Source: Nisaea sediminum | GTDB taxonomy: Bacteria > Pseudomonadota > Alphaproteobacteria > Thalassobaculales > Thalassobaculaceae | DNA length: 64,000 nt | Assembly (NCBI RefSeq): GCF_014904705.1 | Contig: NZ_JACZCQ010000001.1 | Span: forward strand, 1-64,000 | Reading direction: 5' to 3' | In this document: positions 1 through 13,196 of the stretch, in pieces | Layout: the number at the start of each line of letters is the position of its first letter | Position numbering within the stretch: the stretch's first letter is position 1 | Position numbers and translations under genes: made by a program | Notes under the pieces: model-generated | What the model saw: the letters and a program-made list of their open reading frames with translations, nothing else | Databases searched by the model: none | Told to the model about the DNA's origin: nothing

Positions 1-221
1 TCGGCGATATCGAGATCGTCACGACGCCGAGCGACGACAACCGGTCCTACCATATCAATTCGGACAAGATCGCGGAGAAGCTCGGCTTCCGCCCGCAGCA
101 TTCGATCGAGGATGCGGTGCGCGATCTGGTGACCGCCTTCAAGGCCGGCAAGCTGCCGGACCCCATGACGGACGATTTCTATTACAACGTCCGACGCATC
201 AAGCGCCTCGGCATGAAGTAA
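1..221 (+). CDS. NAD-dependent epimerase/dehydratase (SDR), 3' end only
   Basis: The window opens inside this gene. Codons run in frame from base 3 to a TAA at 219-221 and give about 72 residues. The visible tail contains RSYHINSDKIAEKLGF followed by a SIEDAVRDLV stretch, which resembles the C-terminal substrate-binding part of extended SDR nucleotide-sugar epimerases. There the mature protein carries the 'I.S.K....LGF.P...I.D.V..L' pattern. The Rossmann half and the YxxxK site lie upstream of the window, so the substrate cannot be judged. It sits 50 bp before a DegT aminotransferase on the same strand, so a nucleotide-sugar role is likely. Family confidence is moderate. Confidence 0.72.
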   Translation, partial: GDIEIVTTPSDDNRSYHINSDKIAEKLGFRPQHSIEDAVRDLVTAFKAGKLPDPMTDDFYYNVRRIKRLGMK

Positions 222-271: not shown

Positions 272-1495
272 ATGAGAAATATCCAGACCGGAACGCCGAA
301 ACTGGCCATCGAGGGCGGCACGCCTGTTCGAAGCGCCCCGATGCCAAAACGCCGGGCCTTTGGCGACGCCGAGCGACGCAAGGTCGAAGAGGCGATGGCC
401 TATTATCAAGAGATAGGCCAGGACCTGCCCTACGGGGGAAAATACGAGACGGAATACGGCGACGCCTTTACCCGGTACCAGGGCGGGGGCAATACCGTCG
501 TCGTCGCGACGGGCTCGGCCTCCTGCTACGTCGCTCTGCGCGCTCTCGAGCTTCCGGAACATTCAGAGGTCCTGGTTTCTCCGATCACCGATCCGGGGAC
601 GCTGAACGCGATCATTCTCCAGGGACTGCGTCCCCGCCTGATGGATACGCAACCCGACAGTTACAATGTCGGCCCAGAACAGGTTGTCGAGAGCATGACC
701 GGTCAGTCTCGTGCCATTGTGCTCGTGCATTCCGCAGGGATTCCGGCCGACGCCCGCGCCATCGCGACGATCGCGCGCGAGCGCGGCCTGCAACTGTTCG
801 AGGATTGTTCCCAGGCTCACGGCGCCCGTCTCGACAACGGCGACCGCGTGGGAACCGCCGGAAGCGTTGCGGCTTTTTCAACGATGTACCGCAAAGCCCA
901 TATTTCCGGATCCAGCGGCGGGCTGGTCTATTCAAGAGATCAGGAGATCTACAGGCGGGCGATCCTCCATTCGGATCGCGGGAAGCCGCTCTGGGACGCG
1001 GATTTCAATGACAGGCACCCAAGCAATTACATGCTCCCGGCCCATAATTGGAATACGGACGAACTGAGTTGTGCGATCGGCATTTCTTCTCTCGGCAGGC
1101 TCGATAAAAGCATCAATGACCGGCTGAATTTCGTCGAGGCTGTCCGAGAACGGATAAGTGCGAGAAGCCGGGCCTGCAGCGTCGTCAGTATCGACCGGTC
1201 GGCCTCGCCATTTTTCCTCCCGGTCCTGGTCGGAACGGACCGGATCAGCTGTACGAAGCGCGAATTTGCTCTGGCGGTCCAGGCGGAAGGGATCGATCTG
1301 AACCCGCATTACGGTTTTCTCGTGTCCGAGTGGCCATGGATTCAGGACTACCTGTCCGGACCGACGGAGCTCGCAAATGCCCGCAGAGTCCTGGACTCCA
1401 GTTTCTGTCTCTACCTGAATGAGAATTATACGGACAGGGAGGCGGAGGACGTCATCCTTGCCATCGAGAAAGTCGAGGATCGCTTCTGCGCATAG
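272..1495 (+). CDS. DegT/DnrJ/EryC1/StrS-family PLP-dependent sugar aminotransferase
   Basis: A 407-residue protein of the fold-type I PLP family that usually transaminates keto-sugar nucleotides. The expected landmarks are visible: GSASCYVALRAL (about 81-91) in the cofactor phosphate-binding region, EDCSQAHGA at 177-185 with Asp178 as the pyridine-nitrogen ligand, and MYRKAHISGSSGG with Lys208 as the Schiff-base lysine. The lysine motif departs from the common SFHxxKxxxxGEGG, having SGSSGG instead of GEGG, so the protein belongs to a divergent branch. The ATG at 272 follows a weak purine-rich stretch. It lies downstream of an SDR epimerase and converges with the FkbM gene. It could act on a sugar or on a cyclitol-like keto compound; the substrate is unknown. 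Confidence 0.85.
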   Translation: MRNIQTGTPKLAIEGGTPVRSAPMPKRRAFGDAERRKVEEAMAYYQEIGQDLPYGGKYETEYGDAFTRYQGGGNTVVVATGSASCYVALRALELPEHSEVLVSPITDPGTLNAIILQGLRPRLMDTQPDSYNVGPEQVVESMTGQSRAIVLVHSAGIPADARAIATIARERGLQLFEDCSQAHGARLDNGDRVGTAGSVAAFSTMYRKAHISGSSGGLVYSRDQEIYRRAILHSDRGKPLWDADFNDRHPSNYMLPAHNWNTDELSCAIGISSLGRLDKSINDRLNFVEAVRERISARSRACSVVSIDRSASPFFLPVLVGTDRISCTKREFALAVQAEGIDLNPHYGFLVSEWPWIQDYLSGPTELANARRVLDSSFCLYLNENYTDREAEDVILAIEKVEDRFCA

Positions 1496-1532: not shown

Positions 1533-2687
1533 TCACGGGACCGCAAAATAGGTGGCGTCGACGACACCGCCCAGGTACTGGCGCAGATAAAGCTTGCAGT
1601 CGGGGAGCAGCTCTTTCAGCAACAAAGGGACCTCATGCATATGGGACGGCTTGTGATAGCCTGAGATGGCGAGCTTTGGCCGCCACTTGGCGATAGTCTT
1701 CCGTGCGCCGTTCAAGGCGTGAATTTCCGCGCCCTCGATATTCATCTTGATGTAGGAAATCCTCTCGCCTTCGAGTTCTTCGTCGATGCTGGTCACCGGA
1801 ACGATCGTCGAGGGTTCCTCATCAGAATAGCGATGTCTGCCGACCTGCTCGGAAATCCCGGAAGCACGTCCTTCGCCGTTGGAAAATCTCAGCATCGCGG
1901 AACGGTCGAACAAACCTTTCATGATCGGCTTGACGCGATCGCAGGACATGTAGTTGCGCTCAAGCGTAGCGAAATTGTCCGGGTCCGGCTCGAACGGAAA
2001 GATTTTCGAGAAATGTCCGTCGGTCTGCCGGAAAAACTCCTCGATTGTATCGCCGGTATAGGCGCCGCCGTCGACGAAAACTTCATCATCCGCGAGTTTG
2101 AACAGATCCGTTGGAAAGAACGGCACCGGATCGATCAACCCGTCGAGCAGAAGAACGTTGCCCGAAATACGATACCCGATCTGGGCGTTCAGAATGTCCT
2201 TCGACTTCTGGTCGTCGAGGAGTCCGGAGACCTTCCGTAGGGCCTCGGCATGCTCGAGGGCGTCCTCGAGCCAATGCTCATAGAACATGTGCGGCGCAAA
2301 GATTTCGGGAAAAGCCGATTGCAGCACTCCGAACGGCAGAACTTTCCCGAAGCCTTTTTCCTTGAAATTCTTCACCGCTGCGAGCGCGACATGTGACGCA
2401 ACGACAAGCACGGTGTCCCGATCTAGATCTTCCGGCAGATCTTCCAGAACCGGGCATCCGCCCGGAAGCGGCACATTGACCCTCTGCGGATCGCGGTCCA
2501 TTGCCGCCACGATCCTGATGCCAGATTTCGTGGCAATACGGTCCAGCCTTTGACCTTCGGGAGCGGTGCCGATGATTGCAATTCGCTCGAGATCGCCGAC
2601 GCCTTGAATTCCAATCGAGGATTTCAGATGCGCACGGGCGGTTTCGATATCCGGAAACTTTTCGGCGCGATCAATCCAAGCCGACAT
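1533..2687 (-). CDS. FkbM-family SAM-dependent methyltransferase
   Basis: About 384 residues from the ATG at 2687, chosen because AGGAGA (2695-2700) lies seven bases upstream; an ATG at 2735 is also in frame but lacks such a site. The N-terminal half holds a Rossmann-like segment (IAIIGTAPEG, later TVLVVASH) that may be a nucleotide-binding accessory domain. The C-terminal half is an FkbM methyltransferase: EVFVDGGAYTGDT (SAM motif I), PFEPDPDNF, and the family-typical SYIKMNIEGAEIHAL followed by KLAISGYHKP. FkbM enzymes O-methylate sugars or polyketides; next to sugar genes, glycan methylation is the likely role (inference). It converges on the DegT gene and diverges from the radical SAM gene. 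Confidence 0.85.
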   Translation of the reverse strand: MSAWIDRAEKFPDIETARAHLKSSIGIQGVGDLERIAIIGTAPEGQRLDRIATKSGIRIVAAMDRDPQRVNVPLPGGCPVLEDLPEDLDRDTVLVVASHVALAAVKNFKEKGFGKVLPFGVLQSAFPEIFAPHMFYEHWLEDALEHAEALRKVSGLLDDQKSKDILNAQIGYRISGNVLLLDGLIDPVPFFPTDLFKLADDEVFVDGGAYTGDTIEEFFRQTDGHFSKIFPFEPDPDNFATLERNYMSCDRVKPIMKGLFDRSAMLRFSNGEGRASGISEQVGRHRYSDEEPSTIVPVTSIDEELEGERISYIKMNIEGAEIHALNGARKTIAKWRPKLAISGYHKPSHMHEVPLLLKELLPDCKLYLRQYLGGVVDATYFAVP

Positions 2688-2996
2688 TGCAATGTCTCCT
2701 AAAGAGGTACGCCTTCTGTCGCACATAAAGGTCATGAGGTCTTATCGTAATTAGGCTTGAGCGTGGGAAGAAAATTAGGCCGGCGATGCAGGCGCCACGG
2801 CGTCAATGATCCCGACTTCTGCAGAGCAAAACGCGTATCACGCGGATCTTGGATATCGAGAGAAGGAGGTCAATCAATAGAACCGGTGTGAGGAGAGGCC
2901 CACAAAGCTGTATGGCTGGCCTTGTAGAGGGAATTATGGTACGGAAATTGCTTTAAAATGCGCGTCTGAAAACTTTGTGAAAGATTTGGCCATCTG
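2688..2996. other. Intergenic region between divergent FkbM and radical SAM genes
   Basis: About 309 bases without a convincing coding region. It contains the ribosome-binding site of the minus-strand FkbM gene (2695-2700) and must carry promoters for both divergent genes. Base composition is visibly more A/T-rich than the genes. I see no strong hairpin, tRNA or repeat in it. Confidence 0.5.
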
Positions 2997-4007
2997 ATGA
3001 ACTCTATGATGCCAAATGCGAACATCGTGGAGCGTAATAAGCAGCTTCTTGATGCTTTTGCCCGGCAGACTGGATTGCTGTCAGGCGCAGATCTCGCCGA
3101 CTTTCCGCGATTCATCACAATCGAAACGGTCGCCGCCTGCAATGCGCGATGCGTTTTCTGCCCGATCGAGGAGCTGGCCAGATCGACCAGGGTGATCAAG
3201 CCTGATGTCTGGACCAAGTTCGTCGCGCAAGTGGCGGAGCGACGTCAGTCGCATCCGGAGAGCCCGCTGGACATCCATGTGTATGGCACCGGTGAACCCC
3301 TGCTGGACAAGAAACTCGAAAGCCGGATCCGCCAGTTGCGGAGGGCTGGCGTCGAGTCCGTACGGTTTTCCACCAACGCCTCTCTCATGACCCCGGAGCG
3401 ATCGAAGAGCATCCTGGATGCAGGTGCGACGGAAGTCGATTTCTCGGTCGATGGCGTGAAGGCGGAAACCCACGAAAAGCTCCGCCCGGGAATGGTGTTT
3501 CCGATCATTGTCGAAAACATCAAGAAGTTCGTCGAGATCCGCGACCGCGATAAGGCGGATTGCTCGATCAGCGTACGCATGGTCGTTACGGACGAGAATA
3601 TCGACCAGTACGACGAATTCATCGATTTCTGGTCGAAGGTGGTGTCGCCGCGGGATCGGGTCTACGGAAAGTATGTGCATAACTGGGGCAACAGGCTCGA
3701 CATCGATTCAAAAGTGAATGCCGAGCTTTCGGAGCTGAACAAGTCTGCTTGTGCGCTTCCGTTCGGGACGATGATGTTGCTTTCCGACGGGCGCGCGGCG
3801 CTCTGCTGTGTCGATTACAACGCTGCGGTCGAACTGGGAAATCTGAAGGAAATGTCGCTCCAGGAAATCTGGAGAGGTGCAGAGGCCGAGAAGATCCGGT
3901 CCATTCATCTGTCGAAAGGCCGCTGCGGCGTCAATATGTGCAAAGACTGCACGATCTGGGAACCTGAAGCGAAGTCGATCTCGGCCCTGAGATCGGAAAA
4001 ATCCTGA
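2997..4007 (+). CDS. Radical SAM protein with SPASM-type C-terminus
   Basis: A 336-residue protein. The radical SAM cluster motif is CNARCVFC with Cys48, Cys52 and Cys55 (CxxxCxxC), preceded by TIETVAACN. It is followed by HVYGTGEPLLDKK, the glycine-rich SAM-binding strand. The C-terminus carries further cysteines in SACALPFG, ALCCVDYN and GRCGVNMCKDCTIWEP, the arrangement of SPASM/twitch domains that bind auxiliary iron-sulfur clusters. Members oxidise or epimerise peptides, sugars and alcohols; several occur in aminoglycoside or surface-glycan loci. The methyltransferase follows 82 bases later (16 bases if its TTG start is used), so the two are probably co-transcribed. No peptide precursor gene was found beside it, which favours a small-molecule or sugar substrate (inference). 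Confidence 0.88.
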   Translation: MNSMMPNANIVERNKQLLDAFARQTGLLSGADLADFPRFITIETVAACNARCVFCPIEELARSTRVIKPDVWTKFVAQVAERRQSHPESPLDIHVYGTGEPLLDKKLESRIRQLRRAGVESVRFSTNASLMTPERSKSILDAGATEVDFSVDGVKAETHEKLRPGMVFPIIVENIKKFVEIRDRDKADCSISVRMVVTDENIDQYDEFIDFWSKVVSPRDRVYGKYVHNWGNRLDIDSKVNAELSELNKSACALPFGTMMLLSDGRAALCCVDYNAAVELGNLKEMSLQEIWRGAEAEKIRSIHLSKGRCGVNMCKDCTIWEPEAKSISALRSEKS

Positions 4008-4089
4008 TTCACCCGGGCACCGGTTGGCGGTATCGCGCGTCCCAATCGCGCGGGACACTCAAGATCAATACAAAGCGGAACGGCCATTT

Positions 4090-4812
4090 GTGACGGAGAA
4101 AGAGTTGAACAAGTTCTTTGGTGAGGCGAGTTCGCCATTTGCCTTGGAAGCTTATGACCATGTCGACGAATTTGTCGAAGGTGGTACTGCCCGGTGCCTC
4201 GAACTCGGTCCTTATACGACGCGGGCCTTGTTGTCGGATCCCAAGAGATTCGGGTTCATGCTCGCGCGGCACAAATTCGTCGGCAAGATGCTGACCGGAT
4301 ACGACAAAGTTCTGGAAATCGGCTGCCAGGAAGGCTTCACGTCGCTTTTCACAGCTTCGTTCGTCAAGAATCTGGTGTCGGTGGATTTTTTCCGCGAGCA
4401 CATCAAGGTCGCCGTCGAGAAGATCGCCCCCTATGCGGCGAATGTCGAATTCCGCGGTCACGACATCCTCGACGGACCGGTCGAAGGAGGCTTCGATGCG
4501 GCATTCTCCATGGACGTGTTCGAGCATATCGATCCGGCTCAGGAAGACCTCTATTTCGAGAACATAAAGGGCTCACTGACGGACCAGGGCGTCTTCATTT
4601 GCGGCATCCCGTCTCTGGAATCGCAGGAATACGCGTCCGAGGGGTCGAAGCTCGGGCATATCAACTGCAAGACCGGCCAGGGGCTGAAGGACATTTGCGA
4701 ACGGCATTTCCGGAACGTGTTCATGTTCTCGATGAACGACGAGGTGCTGCACACCGGGTTTTTCCCGATGAGTCAGTATCTGATCGCTCTCTGCGTGACC
4801 CCGAAACGCTGA
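4090..4812 (+). CDS. Class I SAM-dependent methyltransferase
   Basis: About 240 residues from a GTG at 4090; a TTG at 4024 would add 22 residues but neither start has a strong ribosome-binding site, so the N-terminus is uncertain. Motif I is KVLEIGCQEGFTS, the acidic strand follows as LVSVDFF, and the post-motif region is FDAAFSMDVFEHIDP, typical of small class I methyltransferases acting on sugars or small molecules. It follows the radical SAM gene on the same strand and ends about 100 bp before the convergent transketolase genes, separated by a strong hairpin. The substrate is not deducible; a role in the same glycan pathway is inferred from position. Confidence 0.82.
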   Translation: MTEKELNKFFGEASSPFALEAYDHVDEFVEGGTARCLELGPYTTRALLSDPKRFGFMLARHKFVGKMLTGYDKVLEIGCQEGFTSLFTASFVKNLVSVDFFREHIKVAVEKIAPYAANVEFRGHDILDGPVEGGFDAAFSMDVFEHIDPAQEDLYFENIKGSLTDQGVFICGIPSLESQEYASEGSKLGHINCKTGQGLKDICERHFRNVFMFSMNDEVLHTGFFPMSQYLIALCVTPKR

Positions 4813-4919: not shown

Positions 4920-5837
4920 TCAGGCGCCAAGTTTCTCGAGGATCGCAGGTGCCGAAAGACCGTGAACCGCGAGAAGTTCCGTATGCGAGCCATAGCTGTG
5001 GATGAACTCGTTCTTGAGCGAGAACGTGTCGACCGGCTTGTCGATGCCCGAATTATAGAGCGACGCCTTCACACTCTGCCCGAGAGATCCTTCCGGCGTG
5101 GTTTCCTCGATGATCACCGTCCGCCCATGTGCGCGGATGAGATCGAGGATCGTGTCCGTATCCAGCGGTTTCAGCGTGTGGCAGGAGACGAAGCTCACGG
5201 ACTGACCTTTGTCCCGAAGACCGCAAACGACGTCCCACGCCACACCTGACATCGGACCGTATGTGAGCACGAGAACGTCCTGGCCGCGCTGGAGCAGGCG
5301 CGGCTTTCCGAACTCCCACTCGGTCTCGGCGCCTTTGGAGAGATTGGGCTCGCCGGCCTTGCCGAGGCGCAGGTAGACCGGACCGCGCGTCTGCGTGGCG
5401 CACCATCGCGTTGCGGCCTCCGTCTCGTCCGGGTCGATCGGCGCGATCACCGACATGTTCGGAAGTGCGCTCGCGATTGCAATGTCTTCCATCGCGTGAT
5501 GCGTGCCGCCCAGTGTGGAGTAGGTCACCCCGCCGCCGATTCCGACGATCGTGACCGGCAGATTCTGATAGCACAGGTCGTCCCGGATGAACTCGAACGG
5601 CCGATAGAGGGTAAAGGTCGCGATGGTATAGGCGAACGGGCGCAGGCCCCTCAGCGCCATCCCGGCTGCAAGTCCGATCATGACCTGTTCCGCGACGCCG
5701 GTATTGATAAAGCGATCCGGGAACTCCTCGCGGAACTTCGTGATCGACCCGGCCGGCGAGATATCCGCGACCACCATGCAGAGCCGGTCGTCCTTCAGAC
5801 CGAGGTCGTAGAACACATCTGCAAATCTGTTTCTCAC
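4920..5837 (-). CDS. Transketolase-like protein, C-terminal subunit
   Basis: About 305 residues from a GTG at 5837 whose GTGA overlaps the stop of the N-terminal subunit, a sign of translational coupling. It carries the pyrimidine-binding (PYR) and C-terminal domains: NTGVAEQVMIGLAAGMA holds the Glu that activates the thiamine aminopyrimidine, followed by AYTIATFTLYRPFE, and GGTHHAMEDIAI. With its partner it should form a heteromeric transketolase-like enzyme moving two-carbon ketol units between sugar phosphates or sugars. Full-length transketolases are about 660 residues; split versions occur in archaea and in secondary-metabolite or polysaccharide loci. Here it closes the sugar operon, so a biosynthetic rather than pentose-phosphate role is likely (inference). 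Confidence 0.9.
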   Translation of the reverse strand: MRNRFADVFYDLGLKDDRLCMVVADISPAGSITKFREEFPDRFINTGVAEQVMIGLAAGMALRGLRPFAYTIATFTLYRPFEFIRDDLCYQNLPVTIVGIGGGVTYSTLGGTHHAMEDIAIASALPNMSVIAPIDPDETEAATRWCATQTRGPVYLRLGKAGEPNLSKGAETEWEFGKPRLLQRGQDVLVLTYGPMSGVAWDVVCGLRDKGQSVSFVSCHTLKPLDTDTILDLIRAHGRTVIIEETTPEGSLGQSVKASLYNSGIDKPVDTFSLKNEFIHSYGSHTELLAVHGLSAPAILEKLGA

Positions 5838-6679
5838 AGGGTCGTACTCTCGATTTCTCGGATGGCTTGCGCATATTCCTCGGGATTCGGGGAACGGTAA
5901 TGCCAGATAGGCACGTTCTCCATGTAGGACACGCCCTTGCCTTTGACCGTCTGGCAGACGGCGATGAACGGTTTCGAGCCGCTCCTGGCCTCCACCGCGC
6001 GCACGATTTCCGAGGAATTGTGGCCGTCGACCTCTTCGACGTCCCATCCGAAGGAGCGAAACTTGTCGGCAAGAGGGTGAAAAGCCTTGTGGCCTTCGCT
6101 CATGCGCTCCAGCCCCGAAAAATCGTTGTAATCCACGAAGGCGACCAGGTTGTCGAGACCGAGATTCGCTGCCGTCATGGCCGCTTCCCAGGTCGAACCC
6201 TCCTGGCATTCTCCGTCGCTCAGGAGCAGAAAGGTCGTGCTTCCGCGGTTGAGCAATTGCTCCGCTTTCGCGATGCCGGCAGCGATGCCCATCCCATGCC
6301 CGAGCGATCCGGTCGCGGCCGCCACGCCGGGCGTACCGTAATCGGGGTGAGTGCCAAGCCGGCCGTCCGGCGTGCAGTATCGGTCCAGGTCCTCTTCGGT
6401 GAGCACGCCGCACTCCGCGAGGATGATGTATTGCAGGATGCAGGCGTGGCCCTTGGACATGAGGAAAATGTCTTCTCCGGCGACCGTTCCGTTGCCCGAC
6501 ATCAGGTGATTGTAGATCGAGTCGACGATCTCCGTGCAGGAGAATGCCGGCGCGACATGCAGCGCTCCGACTTTCTGGGAGACGTCGAGAACACGTCTTC
6601 TGTAGTGCTTGCACCGGTCGAATGCGGCGCTCGCATCGAAAGAGTTTGATCGTCGTGCTTCCATGGCGGCGGCAATCAC
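5834..6679 (-). CDS. Transketolase-like protein, N-terminal (thiamine-diphosphate-binding) subunit
   Basis: A 281-residue protein matching the N-terminal third of transketolase. The thiamine diphosphate/magnesium motif is visible as LSDGECQEGSTWEAA with the closing LVAFVDYNDFSG; GSLGHGMGIAAGIA and DNVEEVDGHN-like stretches (here WDVEEVDGHNSSE) are also family features. Translation probably starts at a GTG (6679) that overlaps the stop of the preceding SDR gene; an internal ATG (residue 6) is an alternative. It overlaps the C-terminal subunit by four bases. Together they supply one complete transketolase active site at the subunit interface. Gene order N then C is that seen in other split transketolases. 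Confidence 0.9.
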   Translation of the reverse strand: MIAAAMEARRSNSFDASAAFDRCKHYRRRVLDVSQKVGALHVAPAFSCTEIVDSIYNHLMSGNGTVAGEDIFLMSKGHACILQYIILAECGVLTEEDLDRYCTPDGRLGTHPDYGTPGVAAATGSLGHGMGIAAGIAKAEQLLNRGSTTFLLLSDGECQEGSTWEAAMTAANLGLDNLVAFVDYNDFSGLERMSEGHKAFHPLADKFRSFGWDVEEVDGHNSSEIVRAVEARSGSKPFIAVCQTVKGKGVSYMENVPIWHYRSPNPEEYAQAIREIESTTL

Positions 6680-7677
6680 GCTCTCAGAACGTAGTCGGTG
6701 GGATAGTCGCGGATATCATCGAGGTACTTCTTGCCCCATTCGACCATCTCCGCGAGCCCGGTATCCCAGTCGATCTCGGGCTTCCAGCCGGTTTCCTCAT
6801 GCAGGCGTGTGGAATCGAGCCAGTACCGACTGTCCTGGCCGAGCCGGTCCTCGGCGACCTCGGCCAGTTCGTTCAGCTGCATCCCCAGCGCGCCGGCGCA
6901 TCGCTCGACGACCTCCCTGATCGATGTCGGCTTCTCGGGTCCGGCGTTGAAGACGCGCCCGGTCGGTCCCTTTTTCGCCAGCAGATGGATCGCCCGCGCC
7001 AGGTCCCGCGCGTGCATGTAGGATTTCTCCGCGCGCCCCCCGCCGTGGAGCGGCAGCTTGTGGCCCGTAAGCCCGGCCCAGATCGCCTTGGGAATGACGC
7101 GATGCAGAAGCTGTCCCGGGCAATAGCAGTTGCAGGGACGGACGATCGTCATCGGGAACTCCGAGAACCTGCCGATCGACAGCAGGTACATGTCGAAGGC
7201 GACCTTCGATGCCGCATAGGGGCTCGTCGGCTGAATCGGAGCATCCTCCGTCACCGCGTGATCGACCGAGCCGTACATCTCGGACGTTCCGATCTGCATG
7301 AAATGTTCAAGCCAGTCCCGTTTGGCAAGCTCTTCAGCCAGGCGCGCGAGTGCCATGGAATTGGTCTCGAAGAACCGCCAGGAATGTTTCCACGAGACGG
7401 CGCCTTCGCCCTGAGCCGCATAATTGATGATCACCTGCGGCTTTTCCCGATCGAGAAGCTCCAGCAGCAGGTCCAGCTCATACGTGACATGTCGAGCGTG
7501 ATACTCAAACCGGGGTTTGCGATCGATGCCGAGTGAAAACGGTTCGGAACGCAGCGGGTTGCGGCCGATGCCGAGGACCTTCTCCGGTTCTGCATTCTCC
7601 AGAAGATAGAGCGCGGTATGTATGCCGAACGATCCGCCGCCGCCCAGGACCGCATATCTTTTTCCGCTCATGTTCAT
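6676..7677 (-). CDS. NAD-dependent epimerase/dehydratase, GDP-mannose 4,6-dehydratase-like
   Basis: A 333-residue extended SDR. The nucleotide-binding loop is VLGGGGSFGIHTA near the N-terminus. The active site is intact: QIGTSEMYGS supplies the Thr/Ser and Glu typical of dehydratases, and SPYAASKVAFD supplies the Tyr-x-x-x-Lys pair. RPCNCYCPGQ and GGGRAEKSYMHARDLARAI match the substrate-binding C-terminal region of GDP-mannose dehydratase relatives. A 4,6-dehydratase or 4-epimerase acting on an NDP-sugar is the best guess. It overlaps the transketolase N-subunit start by four bases, so both are made from one mRNA. Confidence 0.87.
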   Translation of the reverse strand: MNMSGKRYAVLGGGGSFGIHTALYLLENAEPEKVLGIGRNPLRSEPFSLGIDRKPRFEYHARHVTYELDLLLELLDREKPQVIINYAAQGEGAVSWKHSWRFFETNSMALARLAEELAKRDWLEHFMQIGTSEMYGSVDHAVTEDAPIQPTSPYAASKVAFDMYLLSIGRFSEFPMTIVRPCNCYCPGQLLHRVIPKAIWAGLTGHKLPLHGGGRAEKSYMHARDLARAIHLLAKKGPTGRVFNAGPEKPTSIREVVERCAGALGMQLNELAEVAEDRLGQDSRYWLDSTRLHEETGWKPEIDWDTGLAEMVEWGKKYLDDIRDYPTDYVLRA

Positions 7678-7706
7678 CCCTCGGTTTGTTCTCTCGGCAG
7701 CAGAGG

Positions 7707-8375
7707 CTACTCGATTATCGTCCAGTAATAGTCACCGGTATATCCGGCTTCTTCGAACAGCTTGATCCAGCCGTCCGGGTAATCGTGGAACTCGGCGGTA
7801 AGGACCCAATTCTCGAAGACGGCCTTCTGTTCGGGGGTTCTGTAGCTGTCCACTCTGACGTAAGCGTGACCATTCGAGATCCGCTGGATTTCCCTCAACG
7901 CCTCAAGCGCGCGCGGGCGCGGCAGGTTGTGAATGGTGTCCAGGGAGATCACGGCGTCGAAAGCGCCGTCGGGAAAGGGGAGGTGGTCCGCGCTGCCGAG
8001 ATGGAGCCGTCCGATCACCTCCGGATGGCAGTTCATCAGCGCATATTCCGAGATATCGAGCCCGAAGACCTCAAGTCCGGGCGTCGAAGCCAGGAGGTCT
8101 CTGACAAGAAAACCTTTGGCACAACCGACATCGAGAACACGGTCGCCCGCCTTGAGGCCGAAATGCGCGACGAGATCCTTCGCGACCGGCACCCATCTGC
8201 CGTCATAGCGGTATCCGCCGTAGCCATAATCGCGTGGCCCGTCGAAATAGAGCTCGCCGTATTGCTTGGATGCCTCGACGACGGCGCGATCTCTCGACTG
8301 TTCGCGTGCGTCCAGATTCCGTTTGGTTTTCGGAAGCGCACTTAGGAGATTGATCTCATTTCCCATCTTGAACAA
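7707..8375 (-). CDS. Class I SAM-dependent methyltransferase
   Basis: A 222-residue protein with SAM motif I at LKAGDRVLDVGCAKGFLVRDLL, acidic motif LEVFGLDIS and motif post-II FDAVISLDTIHNLPRPRALEAL. Near the C-terminus are HAYVRVDSYRTPEQKAVF and DYYWTIIE, which I do not recognise as a named subfamily. It sits in the middle of the sugar operon, 29 bases ahead of the dehydratase gene, so methylation or C-methylation of a sugar nucleotide is likely (inference). A 117-base gap with a hairpin separates it from the upstream SDR gene, the largest break in this operon. Confidence 0.83.
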   Translation of the reverse strand: MFKMGNEINLLSALPKTKRNLDAREQSRDRAVVEASKQYGELYFDGPRDYGYGGYRYDGRWVPVAKDLVAHFGLKAGDRVLDVGCAKGFLVRDLLASTPGLEVFGLDISEYALMNCHPEVIGRLHLGSADHLPFPDGAFDAVISLDTIHNLPRPRALEALREIQRISNGHAYVRVDSYRTPEQKAVFENWVLTAEFHDYPDGWIKLFEEAGYTGDYYWTIIE

Positions 8376-8454
8376 CCAACTGCCTCTGTAAGCTCGCTAA
8401 CCTGCGTGTTTGAAGGTCCGAAAAATCTTTGTCTTACGCATCTCTCCCGTTTCG

Positions 8455-8481
8455 CTCCTGCCTCGGCGGAGGAGGCAGGAG
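8455..8481 (-). terminator. Intra-operon hairpin, possible attenuator or RNA-processing site
   Basis: CTCCTGCCTC (8455-8464) and GAGGCAGGAG (8472-8481) form a perfect 10-bp stem with a 7-nt loop. It lies in the 117-base gap between two genes of the minus-strand sugar operon. No T-run follows on the minus strand, so partial termination or mRNA stabilisation is more likely than full termination. Confidence 0.45.
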
Positions 8482-8492
8482 TGAAAACGAGC

Positions 8493-9374
8493 CTAGCGCA
8501 TCCGGGCCGCGATGGTCTGTCTCAACCCATCCTCAAGTACCGTGAACCGGAAATCCGGGAAGGCGCGGAAGACATTGGCCGGATCGAACGGCCGGTAGCC
8601 GTTATGCGGCATCGGTCCCTGCCGCGGCTGGCCGACGATCGCGCTTTTCGAACCCGAGAGGCGGACGATCGTTTCCGCGAGCTTGCGGAAGGAATGTACT
8701 TCCCCGGTGGCGCCGTTGATCACTCCGGTGCTACGGCGAAGCACCATCCGTTTCACCAGCTCGGCGACATCCTCGACAAGGATGTGGTCGCGCTGTTCCT
8801 CGCCCTCGCCGAACAGCCGGATCTCCTCATTGGCTGCTGCGAGACGCATGAAACGGTTCGGTCCGTAGCCGTTATGCGGATCGGACGCGCCGTAGATCAG
8901 TGTCGGCCGGATGGTCGCGAGCGGGACGTCGAGCTCCGCCTGGAGGGCGACTTCGCGGCCGAGATGCATGGCACCGTGCAGACTGGCCGGCTCGGCCGCG
9001 GCACTCTCCGACATCGGGTAGAGTACGTCGCGGTAGACCGCATCCGAACTGACATTCACGAGATGTGCGAGCTTCTTCGGACCGAGCGCCTCGATCACAT
9101 TCGCGACAAGGCTCATATTATCCCGCAGCATCGCGGTGTTGCGCACCGGCGCCATGGCGGACACGAAAACCACGCTGTCGCCGTCGCTGACCAGGCCGGA
9201 CAGCTTCGACGGCGCATCGGTGGCCAGCAGGTCCACGTCCGCCCGGGAAATCGAAACGACCCTCGCTCCGGCGTGTTTCAGCGCCTTCGCGACCGCGCCG
9301 CCGACAAAGCCGGCCCCGCCGATGACGGCGACCCGGTCCGGCAGCGTGTTCCTGTCGAGCAGATGTTTCAGCAT
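8493..9374 (-). CDS. SDR-family NAD(P)-binding epimerase-like protein with altered active site
   Basis: About 293 residues from the ATG at 9374, preceded by the purine-rich GGAAGGAAGAG. The fold is an extended SDR: RVAVIGGAGFVGGAVAK (Rossmann GxxGxxG), SISRADVDL, and RPTLIYGASDPHNGYGPNRF. The catalytic segment, however, reads VSSDAVYRDV then LHGAMHLGREVAL, where the Tyr and Lys of YxxxK are replaced by His133 and His137. The Ser residues before it remain. Family knowledge says loss of Tyr/Lys abolishes normal SDR hydride chemistry, so the protein may bind but not oxidise, or use another mechanism. It lies between the dehydrogenase-like gene and a methyltransferase. Confidence 0.75.
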   Translation of the reverse strand: MLKHLLDRNTLPDRVAVIGGAGFVGGAVAKALKHAGARVVSISRADVDLLATDAPSKLSGLVSDGDSVVFVSAMAPVRNTAMLRDNMSLVANVIEALGPKKLAHLVNVSSDAVYRDVLYPMSESAAAEPASLHGAMHLGREVALQAELDVPLATIRPTLIYGASDPHNGYGPNRFMRLAAANEEIRLFGEGEEQRDHILVEDVAELVKRMVLRRSTGVINGATGEVHSFRKLAETIVRLSGSKSAIVGQPRQGPMPHNGYRPFDPANVFRAFPDFRFTVLEDGLRQTIAARMR

Positions 9375-9403
9375 GTCGTCTCTCTTCCTTCCGGGCGGAT
9401 CAG

Positions 9404-10696
9404 TCAGCCTTCGCCGAGCGGGCGGCCGAGCATGAAATGGGCGAAGCCGGCCGCACGCGCGGTGTCGTTGTCGATCAGCCCATAGGGGTCGATCACGGCG
9501 CGACCGCGCATCGCGGCCTTCAGGGCGCTGACCTCGATCTCGCGAAATGCCGGCCATGGCGTGGTCAGGAACAGCACGTCGGCATCTGCACAGGCCTCGA
9601 GCGCCGAGGCGGCATGGTCGAGCCCCGGCAGGGCGTCTCTGCCGACCACGGGATCGAAGACCTTTATGTCGGCCTCTCCGCCGAGCCCGTCCAGCAGCAC
9701 CAGTGACGGCGCGTTCTTCAGGGAATGGGTGTTCTCCTTGTAGGCGAGTCCGAGGATCGCCACGCGCGGTCGGCCCGGTAGCATCGGGCGGACGAGGTCG
9801 CGATAGATTCTGTACGGCCAGTCCTTCCGCCATTTGCTGTTGGAGATCCAGGCTTCGACCACGCCGCCATCGGTCCCGTTCGCCTCGGCAAAGCGGATCA
9901 CCGTCGCGAGATCGCGTTCCAGATTACCGCCGGAAAGACCGAGGCCCGGAGTGAGATAGGAATATTGTCCGATCCGCCTGTCGAGTTTCAGCGCCGGAAC
10001 GATCTCGGACCAGTCCGCTCCGATCTTCTCGCAAAGCTCGGCGAGCGTGTTCGCCGTGGAAAGTGAGGCCACGAGACAGCAGTTGATGGAGATCTTCGCC
10101 AGCTCGGCACTCTCGTAGCGCATCGGCAGAATGGGGCAGTCGAACGCCTCCAGGAGCGCACGGTATTTGCCGGGTAACGGCTCCGCAGCGTCCGCGCAGC
10201 CGACGATGTAGCGTTCCGGATGGCGTGCCCGTTCGATTGCGCGACCGAAAACCAGCGTCTCGACCTGGTAGTAGAGGCGCTCCTTCGGGAAATCGAGCGC
10301 CCGCGTGAAGCCCGGGGGCACCTGACAGAGAATGACGAGCAGCGCTTCGGAGCCGAGCACCGGGACGATCCTGTCGAGGATCGCCCTGATACGGGTCAGG
10401 TCCGATTGCCCTTCATCGTCGGTCGGCACATCGACCGAGATGTAGACGATATCCGCACGCGTCAGGTCTGACGGACTTGATGTGAAGTGCAGCCGGTCCG
10501 GGTTCGCGGCGAGCATTTCGGGCAAGTCCGGTTCCATTATCGGAAGGTCGCCGCGCCGGAGACCTGTTGTCTCCGCATCGGTTTCGGAAAAACCGATCAC
10601 CTCGAAACCGAGATCCGTGACGGCGACGGCCGAGTTCAGTCCGAGATGGGTCATTCCGGCGAACCCGATGACGGGCTTTTTCCTTCCGACAGGCAT
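9404..10696 (-). CDS. UDP-glucose/GDP-mannose dehydrogenase-like protein lacking the catalytic Cys
   Basis: About 430 residues from the ATG at 10696, five bases after the stop of the preceding gene (other in-frame ATGs at 10714 and 10729 would overlap it). The family layout is present: IGFAGMTHLGLNSA (NAD loop), YISVDVPTDD, VILCQVPPGFT, Glu146 in YYQVETLVFGRA, and Lys201/Asn205 in AELAKISINCCL. The C-terminal domain has VAILGLAYKENTHSLKNAPS. The catalytic loop normally reads GGSCFPKD; here it is LSGGNLERD, with Asn258 where the nucleophilic Cys should be. Two-step oxidation to a uronic acid needs that Cys, so another reaction is likely. It is a member of the sugar operon. Confidence 0.8.
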   Translation of the reverse strand: MPVGRKKPVIGFAGMTHLGLNSAVAVTDLGFEVIGFSETDAETTGLRRGDLPIMEPDLPEMLAANPDRLHFTSSPSDLTRADIVYISVDVPTDDEGQSDLTRIRAILDRIVPVLGSEALLVILCQVPPGFTRALDFPKERLYYQVETLVFGRAIERARHPERYIVGCADAAEPLPGKYRALLEAFDCPILPMRYESAELAKISINCCLVASLSTANTLAELCEKIGADWSEIVPALKLDRRIGQYSYLTPGLGLSGGNLERDLATVIRFAEANGTDGGVVEAWISNSKWRKDWPYRIYRDLVRPMLPGRPRVAILGLAYKENTHSLKNAPSLVLLDGLGGEADIKVFDPVVGRDALPGLDHAASALEACADADVLFLTTPWPAFREIEVSALKAAMRGRAVIDPYGLIDNDTARAAGFAHFMLGRPLGEG

Positions 10697-10700
10697 GTTC

Positions 10701-11627
10701 TCAGGCCGCTCCATCGATTTCGGCGGCAAGGCGTCCGAGCGAACGATAGAGCCAGCGATCGTTTTCCAGGTTGGAGCCGCCGCCTCCGGCGCAGAGCGCC
10801 TTGAAATGTGTGTACTCGGCTTCCCAGGTCGGATCGTCCTGGACCAGGGTCAAAGCTTCCTCCGGCGGGCGTCCGCTGGGCAGAATCCGGTGACGGTGAA
10901 CGAAGCGGGACGGGCCCCATTTGCAGAGCGACTCGATATGCGCGGTGCCATGCTCCGCAAAGACGTCGCAGGTAAAGTGGTTGCGCCAGGAGAGGAGAGT
11001 CATCTCCAGCTCGATACGCGGGCCGGCGTTTCCGGATGCGATCACCACATGATCCGGCGCCCGGTTTTCGAACCGGTCGGCGGAGATGATCGAGAAGTCG
11101 TCGGCGATATCGCCGAACCAGAAGCGCGCCGTATCGAGCAGATGACTTCCGAGATCCGGCAACACGCCAGCGCCCGTGTCGCGCCAGGCGGACTCCCGGA
11201 CGAGGCGGGCCGTGCCGTTTCCATAGAACATCCGGCAGCGATAGATCTCGCCGAGCGCGCCTGAGGTGATGAGGTCGCGCATGCGGACGAAATGGGGCTC
11301 GAAGCGATGATTGTAGGCGGTATAGCAGACCGCGCCGGACGTCGCGGCAAGCCCGGCGAGCTCGTCGATCTGATTTTCGTTAGAGAACCACAGGGGCTTT
11401 TCCACCAGAACATGCTTGCCGTGTGCGAGCAGGTATTTCAGGAGCTCGAATTTCGGCTCGTCCGGGGTACAGACGAGAGCTGCATCGAACCGCTCGAGTG
11501 GCACCTCCTCAAGCGTCCGGAAGTCGGCGTCTCCATGAACGGGGTCGACGGTCCCGATGCATTCCTCGCCCACGACGCGACGCCGCTTGTGGCCCTGGAT
11601 GCCGAGCCCGACGACAAGTGCTCTCAT
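10701..11627 (-). CDS. Gfo/Idh/MocA-family NAD(P)-dependent oxidoreductase
   Basis: A 308-residue protein with the N-terminal Rossmann fold LVVGLGIQGHKRR and the family hallmark HGKHVLVEKPLWFS, whose Lys in EKP is the usual catalytic/substrate residue. A second signature, GAGVLPDLGSHLLDTARFWFG, corresponds to the D-x-G-x-H region of the substrate domain. Members oxidise or reduce sugars, inositols and sugar nucleotides. It lies 15 bases after the kinase fusion gene and 4 bases before the dehydrogenase-like gene, so it is clearly co-transcribed. The exact sugar is unknown. Confidence 0.85.
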   Translation of the reverse strand: MRALVVGLGIQGHKRRRVVGEECIGTVDPVHGDADFRTLEEVPLERFDAALVCTPDEPKFELLKYLLAHGKHVLVEKPLWFSNENQIDELAGLAATSGAVCYTAYNHRFEPHFVRMRDLITSGALGEIYRCRMFYGNGTARLVRESAWRDTGAGVLPDLGSHLLDTARFWFGDIADDFSIISADRFENRAPDHVVIASGNAGPRIELEMTLLSWRNHFTCDVFAEHGTAHIESLCKWGPSRFVHRHRILPSGRPPEEALTLVQDDPTWEAEYTHFKALCAGGGGSNLENDRWLYRSLGRLAAEIDGAA

Positions 11628-11642
11628 GAACGTGGTCCCGTT

Positions 11643-13196
11643 CTAGTTCTCGAAATTCGCGCGCCGCTGGATCGCGTTGATCTTTTTCAGTACGTCCGCC
11701 GGGGTAACCGGAATATTGCCGTCCTGCTCGCATTCGACGGCTGCGGCGAAGGACCCGAGCACGGTCGAGATCGGTGCGCTGCCAGTGGTCATCATGGCGA
11801 GGGTGGCATAGGCAAGCAGTGCGTCGCCGGCTCCGACCGCGTCTTCCAGGTGATCGACGAAACTGTCGACGACGAAGAACGAGTCGAGCAAATGATGATC
11901 GGCGCTGCGACAGGTCAGTACACCGCGATCCCCGAGTTTCAGGATCAGCGTCCCGCATTCCGCCGCATCGTAGATCTGTGACGCCAGCGGACGGATGCCG
12001 GAATCCTGATCGGCGATGCTGAACCGCGCTTCGCGCTCGTTCGGCGTGATCAGATCGAAGCCCTTGAATTCGGTGATGTTGCCCCATCGGCTCGCGACTT
12101 GGCTGTCGGCCACTTTGAACACGCCCGGACGGATGGCAGAGATCAGGGACGGTATGGTCCTCCGGTTGAAGATGCCGTGCCGGAAGTCGCTGAAGACCAC
12201 GGCGCCTTCCGCCGTGGCCCGAATCTGCTTTGTCAGCTTGCCGGCGATCTCGTCGGAGATGCTCGAATTGTCCAGCGTATCGATTTTGAGCAGGCGGTAT
12301 CCTCCGGCGACGATCGCGTTTTTATTTGTCGTCGGCCGTGTCGGGTCGATGATCGGCTTCAGTGTGATTCCGGCCTCCTTGAGGTCGGCCAGGACGAAAT
12401 CCTTGTAATCGTCCTCTCCGAGGACGGTAGAGAACGTGACGTCCGCACCGGCGGCGGCGAGGTGCTTGGCGACGATGGCCGCGCCGCCGACATAATCTCT
12501 CCTGCCCTGATACAGAACGCTGATTGTCGGCGTCTTCGTCTGGCCGCCGATCATCGACGTTTCCGTATAGCTGTCGACGATCGTATCGCCGATCACGTGC
12601 ACCTTCTGTCCCGCCATGTTCTCCAGGGCGCCCGTCAACTCGTCGAATCCGAACCGCTCCTGCTGCATCAGCATCAGAAGTTTCTCCATCGGAATCCGCG
12701 GAGCTTCGAGTTCGATCAGCTTCGATGAGGAGTAGACAATATCGCCGGGCGTAAAGATCACCTCGCCGCCGAAGGATTGAACGGTCTCGACCTCTTCCTG
12801 GGTCTTCGGCGGCAAACCGCTTGCCGCATACTCGTATCCCTTCGCGAAAAGGTCGGGCTTGATGATCCGGAGATTCTCGAGTGGTTTTGCATTCGGGTCG
12901 ATCACGACGAAATCGACGATTTCGAAGGCGGCGAGATTCATGGCCCGGAGCTGTTCCGGCACATGGGGGCGATAGACGCCTTTCGCGATATGCTGATCGG
13001 CCGTCAAGCTCGCGATCAGTATGTCCGCCTTGCTCTTTGCAAACATGAGATGGCGCAGGTGTCCCGGATGAACCACGTCGAACACGCCATGGCACACGAT
13101 CACTTTCTTTTTGCGCGGGCGGGGGCCGACAATTTTCGCGATTTCCTCGGCGGTCTTGATCTTGTGCTTGTAGCGTTCTGCAAATTCAGTGGTCAT
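11643..13196 (-). CDS. Nucleotidyltransferase-PfkB sugar kinase fusion (HldE-like, reversed domain order)
   Basis: About 517 residues from the ATG at 13196. The N-terminal part has the cytidylyltransferase-fold signature VIVCHGVFDVVHPGHLRHL (HxGH) and later VYSSSKLIE. The C-terminal part is a ribokinase/PfkB kinase: VHVIGDTIVDSYTE, LITPNEREARF, and the catalytic anion hole DAVGAGDALLAYATLA. HldE (heptose-7-phosphate kinase/heptose-1-phosphate adenylyltransferase) has these two activities but in the order kinase then transferase; here they are inverted. It would phosphorylate a sugar and activate it with a nucleotide. It heads the minus-strand sugar operon and is 15 bases from the next gene. 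The codons upstream of 13196 are in frame but look non-coding. Confidence 0.85.
   Translation of the reverse strand: MTTEFAERYKHKIKTAEEIAKIVGPRPRKKKVIVCHGVFDVVHPGHLRHLMFAKSKADILIASLTADQHIAKGVYRPHVPEQLRAMNLAAFEIVDFVVIDPNAKPLENLRIIKPDLFAKGYEYAASGLPPKTQEEVETVQSFGGEVIFTPGDIVYSSSKLIELEAPRIPMEKLLMLMQQERFGFDELTGALENMAGQKVHVIGDTIVDSYTETSMIGGQTKTPTISVLYQGRRDYVGGAAIVAKHLAAAGADVTFSTVLGEDDYKDFVLADLKEAGITLKPIIDPTRPTTNKNAIVAGGYRLLKIDTLDNSSISDEIAGKLTKQIRATAEGAVVFSDFRHGIFNRRTIPSLISAIRPGVFKVADSQVASRWGNITEFKGFDLITPNEREARFSIADQDSGIRPLASQIYDAAECGTLILKLGDRGVLTCRSADHHLLDSFFVVDSFVDHLEDAVGAGDALLAYATLAMMTTGSAPISTVLGSFAAAVECEQDGNIPVTPADVLKKINAIQRRANFEN

Follow-up and report, generated by a model that had tools for sequence, protein, structure and literature searches.

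A conserved Gram-negative gene module with an exchangeable thiamine diphosphate carboligase, predicted to make a C2-branched higher-carbon sugar

We analyzed a 64,000-nucleotide stretch of the Nisaea sediminum genome (contig NZ_JACZCQ010000001.1, hereafter C1; the whole stretch is called the window), which carries eight open reading frames on the minus strand at positions 13196–4920, ending in a two-gene (split) transketolase dependent on thiamine diphosphate (ThDP). An earlier note on this DNA had read these genes as an operon for an unusual activated sugar; they form one half of a larger locus. The genes, in the order of transcription, and one intergenic element are as follows (SDR, short-chain dehydrogenase/reductase; SAM, S-adenosylmethionine).

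11643..13196, minus: NK, fusion of an N-terminal nucleotidyltransferase and a C-terminal PfkB kinase, the reverse of the HldE order
10701..11627, minus: GFO, Gfo/Idh/MocA oxidoreductase
9404..10696, minus: UGL, UDP-glucose/GDP-mannose dehydrogenase-like protein, with the catalytic Cys replaced by an invariant Asn258
8493..9374, minus: SDRa, NAD-dependent epimerase/dehydratase family
8376..8492, minus: intergenic hairpin in the SDRa/MT gap, candidate attenuator or unit boundary
7707..8366, minus: MT, class-I SAM methyltransferase belonging to the conserved module
6676..7677, minus: SDRb, GDP-mannose/dTDP-glucose 4,6-dehydratase-like SDR, 33% identical to gdh of the bradyrhizose cluster
5834..6679, minus: TKN, split transketolase N-terminal half, ThDP-binding, with the SDG...N motif and His residues retained
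4920..5837, minus: TKC, split transketolase C-terminal half, with the catalytic Glu retained and H461/D469/R520 (E. coli numbering) changed to G/L/K

Pfam and NCBIfam models agree with the families that had been named (nucleotidyltransferase-kinase fusion, Gfo/Idh oxidoreductase, dehydrogenase-like protein, two SDRs, methyltransferase and transketolase pair), assigning CTP_transf_like and PfkB to NK, Gfo/Idh to GFO, all three UDPG_MGDP_dh domains to UGL, an SDR domain to SDRa, a class-I methyltransferase domain to MT, a GDP_Man_Dehyd-like SDR domain to SDRb, Transketolase_N to TKN, and Transket_pyr plus Transketolase_C to TKC. All eight frames are in place, but their description as overlapping or nearly touching holds for every junction except one: SDRa and MT are ~120 nt apart, and this gap holds a perfect 10-bp hairpin (-40 kcal/mol, z -2.1) with no T-run directly behind it. 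Because of this gap and its hairpin, the operon may comprise two transcription units. The division of the transketolase is not the product of a frameshift in a single gene, given that the split is kept in every relative that has the enzyme and also in a split transketolase of solved structure.

To define the conservation of the locus, we searched genome contigs with a profile of 13 UGL proteins, which identified 255 encoding stretches, and used the best 80 (hereafter, the 80 loci), many of which are cut off by contig ends, a limit on all the locus counts given here. Relatives in several phyla share one gene order: isomerase, phosphatase, transaldolase, two SDRs and NK, followed by GFO, UGL, an SDR, a methyltransferase and then one two-subunit ThDP carboligase. 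Among the 80 loci, homologs were counted for NK (73), GFO (74), SDRa (72), MT (65), SDRc (62) and SDRd (59), as well as for the transaldolase (53), a HAD phosphatase (45) and a SIS isomerase (42); the transaldolase of one relative exceeds the TIGR02134 cut-off (324 vs 282 bits). A DegT homolog (at least 45% identity) is present in 14 of the 80 loci and adjoins the ThDP genes in 13 of these. The comparison of gene neighborhoods that the earlier note had proposed as a check thus comes out in favor of a real unit: each of the 20 best relatives has homologs of NK, GFO and UGL in this order, and the full module is found again in dozens of genomes, so that the grouping exceeds chance. NK itself reaches at least 60% identity in 22 of 98 relatives, and no plasmid copies of the UGL protein were found at E <= 1e-60.

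Several side observations concern the sampled loci. In one relative, genes of the 'sporadic carbohydrate cluster' families TIGR04323/TIGR04324, scoring well above cut-off, lie directly upstream of the module (L033, 3406-4696); they were rejected as module-defining markers, having homologs in only 3 of the 80 loci. A paralogous locus with an NK of ~31% identity, two DegT genes and a pyruvate-dehydrogenase-E1-like alpha/beta pair is present in addition in two congeners (L042, 9135-16176; L043, 4041-11076), suggesting that the genus Nisaea makes another branched or higher-carbon sugar. The metagenome-assembled genome records titled Nitrospira lenta or Bordetella parapertussis (L062, L067, L110) are environmental bins and probably mislabeled, so neither title identifies the host.

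The most distinctive property of the module is that its 3' slot is exchangeable. Across the 80 loci, the slot, scored within 10-kb flanks, holds a split transketolase in 37 cases and an E1-like alpha/beta pair in 20, but never both together (hypergeometric P ~3e-7, computed over loci that are not phylogenetically independent). In many loci, whichever of the two is present comes after SDRb. The E1-like pair yields TIGR03182 and PRK11892-type matches, below cut-off, and no E2 was detected among the scanned flanking genes of a congener carrying the pair. The content of the slot switches 13 times on the UGL tree, with at least 6 switches forced by well-supported branches, and one switch falls inside Nisaea, where the window has the transketolase and two congeners have E1, all within one fully supported UGL clade in which the UGL proteins are ~80% identical.

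The split transketolase is a genuine ThDP transketolase, as the earlier note had held: in the window and throughout the family, the Asp and Asn of the ThDP motif, the catalytic Glu, and H26, H66, H100, H261 and H473 are retained, and the first Gly of GDG is Ser. In 36 of 36 split transketolases of the module, however, the residues of the acceptor-phosphate end, H461, D469 and R520 (E. coli numbering, mapped via the host's TktA), are replaced by G, L and K, respectively, whereas the host TktA and the solved split enzyme of Carboxydothermus have H, D and R. The R358 alignment column was set aside as unreliable, the solved split enzyme being misaligned there as well. We rejected the idea that the pair is simply a canonical transketolase that ended up among glycan genes, since the genome has its own TktA and the substrate residues differ.

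Three further enzymes carry informative sequence features. Alignment of UGL with 3gg2 places Asn at the position of the catalytic Cys (GGSCFPKD), and this Asn is invariant in 13 of 13 aligned UGL proteins. In UDP-glucose dehydrogenases, the catalytic Cys serves the thiohemiacetal step; lacking it, UGL is therefore expected to perform only alcohol/ketone chemistry, and acid formation of the UDP-glucuronate type is not expected. The scores of NK with the HldE equivalogs, 121.5 and 87.2 bits, fall short of the respective cut-offs of 345 and 181.5 bits, and its domain order is reversed, which disposes of a plain ADP-heptose operon. The SDRb motifs, TSEMYG and YAASK, resemble those of GDP-mannose 4,6-dehydratases.

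The locus extends beyond the operon to base 1 of the window, which is the edge of contig C1, and from there onto contig C16 of the same genome. The genes between the window edge and the operon are listed below (PLP, pyridoxal phosphate).

3..221, plus: SDRd, C-terminal 72 residues, NAD-dependent epimerase/dehydratase family; its N-terminus lies at the C16 edge behind the isomerase and transaldolase
272..1495, plus: DegT/DnrJ/EryC1/StrS PLP aminotransferase, with homologs of at least 45% identity adjoining ThDP genes in 13 relatives
1533..2735, minus: FkbM-family methyltransferase, of uncertain membership in the locus
2997..4007, plus: radical SAM/SPASM protein, of uncertain membership in the locus
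4024..4812, plus: class-I methyltransferase, a likely member, with 40–52% identical homologs near the module in several relatives

The edge of C16 carries, in order, a SIS isomerase, a transaldolase (75% identical to that of a congener) and the start of SDRd. Because one SDRd gene is split over both contig edges, C1 and C16 are predicted to be joined there, and the two edges together hold the complete locus, in which the isomerase, transaldolase, SDRd, DegT enzyme and others run toward the eight-gene operon. The same layout of two converging halves is found in Nisaea nitritireducens and N. denitrificans. Beyond the locus lie unrelated genes: an SDR, an amidohydrolase and a TRAP transporter upstream of SIS on C16 and, past NK in a congener, cobalamin genes. 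No glycosyltransferase was found among the scanned genes adjoining the host's locus and no HAD phosphatase match near it, compared with the HAD gene of so many relatives.

Further support for C2 transfer comes from bradyrhizose, the sugar of the O-antigen of photosynthetic Bradyrhizobium. A gdh mutant of Bradyrhizobium ORS285 has no bradyrhizose O-antigen; gdh lies in an 11-gene cluster, polar effects were not excluded by the authors, and the genes for bradyrhizose were otherwise unknown (PMC4743980). Using the gene-derived portion of the forward gdh primer, we searched 391 genomes of Bradyrhizobium's family and found four large ones with 0 or 1 mismatch, one genome being matched exactly by both primers. 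In all four, gdh, TKN and TKC are directly consecutive. In one of these genomes, the cluster encodes an NK fusion, an NTP_transferase, an SDRd-like protein, SIS, gdh, TKN and TKC (genes 1–7), followed by a zinc alcohol dehydrogenase, an unknown protein, an APH-like kinase and a methyltransferase (genes 8–11). Seven of the 11 genes have counterparts in the window locus (NK fusion, 31% identity; SIS, 29%; SDRd-like, 46%; gdh/SDRb, 33%; TKN and TKC, ~41%; methyltransferase, 44%). Four do not, among them the NTP_transferase, zinc alcohol dehydrogenase and APH-like kinase, and the window locus in turn has additional genes, such as SDRa, missing from the cluster, which also lacks HAD. The transketolase active-site replacements are identical to those of the module, as is the gdh-TKN-TKC order, and in the TKC tree the Bradyrhizobium proteins stand beside the module clade but outside it, as a separate branch of the sub-family. 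Separately, a 204-aa protein of the cluster (L134, 13734-14348) has no Pfam match.

The structure of bradyrhizose fits such a reaction. Its C1 aldehyde closes with O4 (furanose) or with O5 or O9 (pyranoses) (PMC9912281), so C4 must have bonds to both C5 and C9 as well as a hydroxyl, making it a tertiary carbinol. ThDP-dependent attack on a 4-ketone would yield exactly this carbinol, and the ten carbons of the sugar would correspond to an octose plus C2 or, equally, to a heptose plus C2 plus a C-methyl.

Taken together, the gene content leads us to favor, by a modest measure, a locus whose product is a higher-carbon sugar, nucleotide-activated and branched (or extended) by C2, that most likely goes into a surface glycan, in keeping with the unusual activated sugar that had been proposed. 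That the ThDP enzyme performs C2 branching of a keto-sugar nucleotide appears probable, and an octose backbone is the slightly preferred option. What we observe are the genes; the individual reactions, the length of the chain, the point at which C2 is transferred and the fate of the sugar we infer. The transaldolase would place a C3 unit on a pentose phosphate to give octulose 8-phosphate (or, less likely, a heptulose), which the SIS isomerase would convert to the aldose. The PfkB half of NK would then phosphorylate C1; removal of the distal phosphate would fall to a phosphatase (in the relatives), and production of a nucleoside diphosphate (NDP)-sugar to the nucleotidyltransferase half. Both NK activities would, by analogy, act as in lincosamide biosynthesis. 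The SDRs, GFO and the Cys-less UGL may epimerize, oxidize or dehydrate the NDP-sugar, with SDRb leaving a keto-sugar, to whose ketone the split transketolase would move a hydroxyacetyl (C2 ketol) unit, creating a tertiary-alcohol branch; in sister loci, the E1-alpha/beta pair would move acetyl instead. The methyltransferase and DegT aminotransferase would complete the sugar.

The C2 ketol transfer envisaged in the earlier note gains support from the alternation of the slot with an E1-like pair of the C2-transferring kind and from the related split transketolases of the bradyrhizose cluster. Its order of events, in which branching preceded phosphorylation and activation, is probably reversed, with the transketolase acting late, because the transaldolase and isomerase, which lie outside the window and were not visible to that note, explain the early carbon chain more simply. 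The fullest version of our interpretation, a lincosamide-like octose pathway with an interchangeable slot for hydroxyacetyl or acetyl branching and the same transketolase sub-family branching bradyrhizose, we put forward tentatively, at somewhat below an even chance.

Several observations weigh against this interpretation. The SIS, HAD and NK families are also heptose-type families, so that a shorter chain is possible, and NK is HldE-like, whereas LmbO of the lincosamide pathway is a guanylyltransferase, the likeness to Lmb proteins being one of family description. Transaldolase, UGL and Gfo/Idh genes are absent from the bradyrhizose cluster, which is for this reason a cousin with a different pathway. 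Furthermore, the H461/D469/R520 change (with D469 to L or Q) is shared by 29 more split transketolases that we sampled in the phylum (L142-L170), and because of these it marks a sub-family wider than the module. This wider sub-family probably includes many other C2-branched sugar loci. Some of its members adjoin methyltransferase or sugar-SDR genes.

The strongest competitor, although unlikely, is a C7 backbone derived from sedoheptulose 7-phosphate through GmhA/HldE/GmhB-like steps and then branched by the ThDP enzyme, with the transaldolase only feeding the pentose-phosphate pool. The best named-family models for SIS, HAD and NK are indeed GmhA, GmhB and HldE, albeit below cut-offs, SDRb matches, among others, a GDP-heptose 4,6-dehydratase (7us5), and the ten carbons of bradyrhizose accommodate a heptose as well. 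Conversely, 53 of the 80 loci retain a dedicated transaldolase, NK is reversed and far under the heptose cut-offs, and the late enzymes fit octose pathway families. Quite unlikely, in our estimate, is an early role in which TKN/TKC adds C2 to an aldose phosphate before isomerization, phosphorylation and activation: transketolases are textbook chain-elongating enzymes and the fold retains all ThDP and His relay residues, but the three residues of the acceptor-phosphate end are lost, the transaldolase-isomerase pair already accounts for the carbon backbone, the slot can instead hold E1-like enzymes, which as a class are not known to build sugar phosphates, and in many of the loci SDRb precedes either enzyme. 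That the ThDP enzyme makes a cyclitol or an aromatic precursor in place of a sugar is highly improbable: 3-amino-5-hydroxybenzoate pathways also contain split transketolases and Gfo/Idh, kinase and DegT proteins, but no dehydroquinate-synthase-type gene is present among the scanned genes, and nucleotidyltransferase and sugar SDRs predominate.

Among known systems, the ADP-heptose pathway shares with the module the logic of isomerase, kinase, phosphatase and nucleotidyltransferase, and the HldE domains are recognizable in NK; the module differs in its reversed fusion, its scores far under the heptose cut-offs, its dedicated transaldolase and its late enzymes. Closer is the GDP-octose pathway of lincosamide biosynthesis, comprising the LmbR transaldolase, LmbN octulose 8-phosphate isomerase, LmbK phosphatase, LmbP kinase and LmbO guanylyltransferase, followed by the LmbM epimerase, LmbL dehydrogenase, LmbZ oxidoreductase and LmbS aminotransferase (PMC4351081). 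Each of these nine has a family-level counterpart in the module: the transaldolase and SIS isomerase at the C16 edge, joined via the split SDRd; the kinase, nucleotidyltransferase, UGD-like, Gfo/Idh, SDR and PLP aminotransferase proteins; and the phosphatase in relatives only. Work from 2020 on LmbM, LmbL, CcbZ and CcbS reportedly assigned octose epimerization, dehydration and transamination. The earlier note had recognized no described pathway with this gene combination; most of the families do fit the lincosamide one, but the transketolase/E1 ending is foreign to it, as are the fusion of kinase and nucleotidyltransferase and the extra SDRs and methyltransferase, and the module resides in Gram-negative genomes, in contrast to the lmb/ccb genes of Streptomyces.

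For that ending, the nearest parallels are the known or proposed ThDP branching enzymes (YerE-like enzymes, alphaKADH2 enzymes such as KbDH, and the miharamycin/amipurimycin split transketolases), which, as in the module, have two subunits and lie beside keto-sugar-forming enzymes. Addition of C2 to keto-sugars is known or proposed for E1-type enzymes and proposed for split transketolases, including for miharamycin branching; both types in the slot are represented (PMC12247030). A 2025 review of ThDP-dependent tertiary-alcohol formation places keto-sugar-branching split transketolases in streptomycetes only (13 sequences, none characterized) and attributes branching in lipopolysaccharide to YerE-like enzymes (PMC12247030). 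Whereas these enzymes belong to streptomycete-type secondary metabolism and act alone, transketolase and E1 alternate here in one conserved Gram-negative locus, an arrangement that is undescribed as far as the cited sources go. The split transketolase behind gdh is a concrete candidate for a C-C bond-forming step of bradyrhizose, and, if our interpretation is correct, ketone-accepting split transketolases would extend from streptomycetes into many Gram-negative surface glycans. Nisaea species, with ~80%-identical neighboring enzymes and different carboligases, offer natural pairs for the study of C2 branching and of enzymatic routes to tertiary alcohols.

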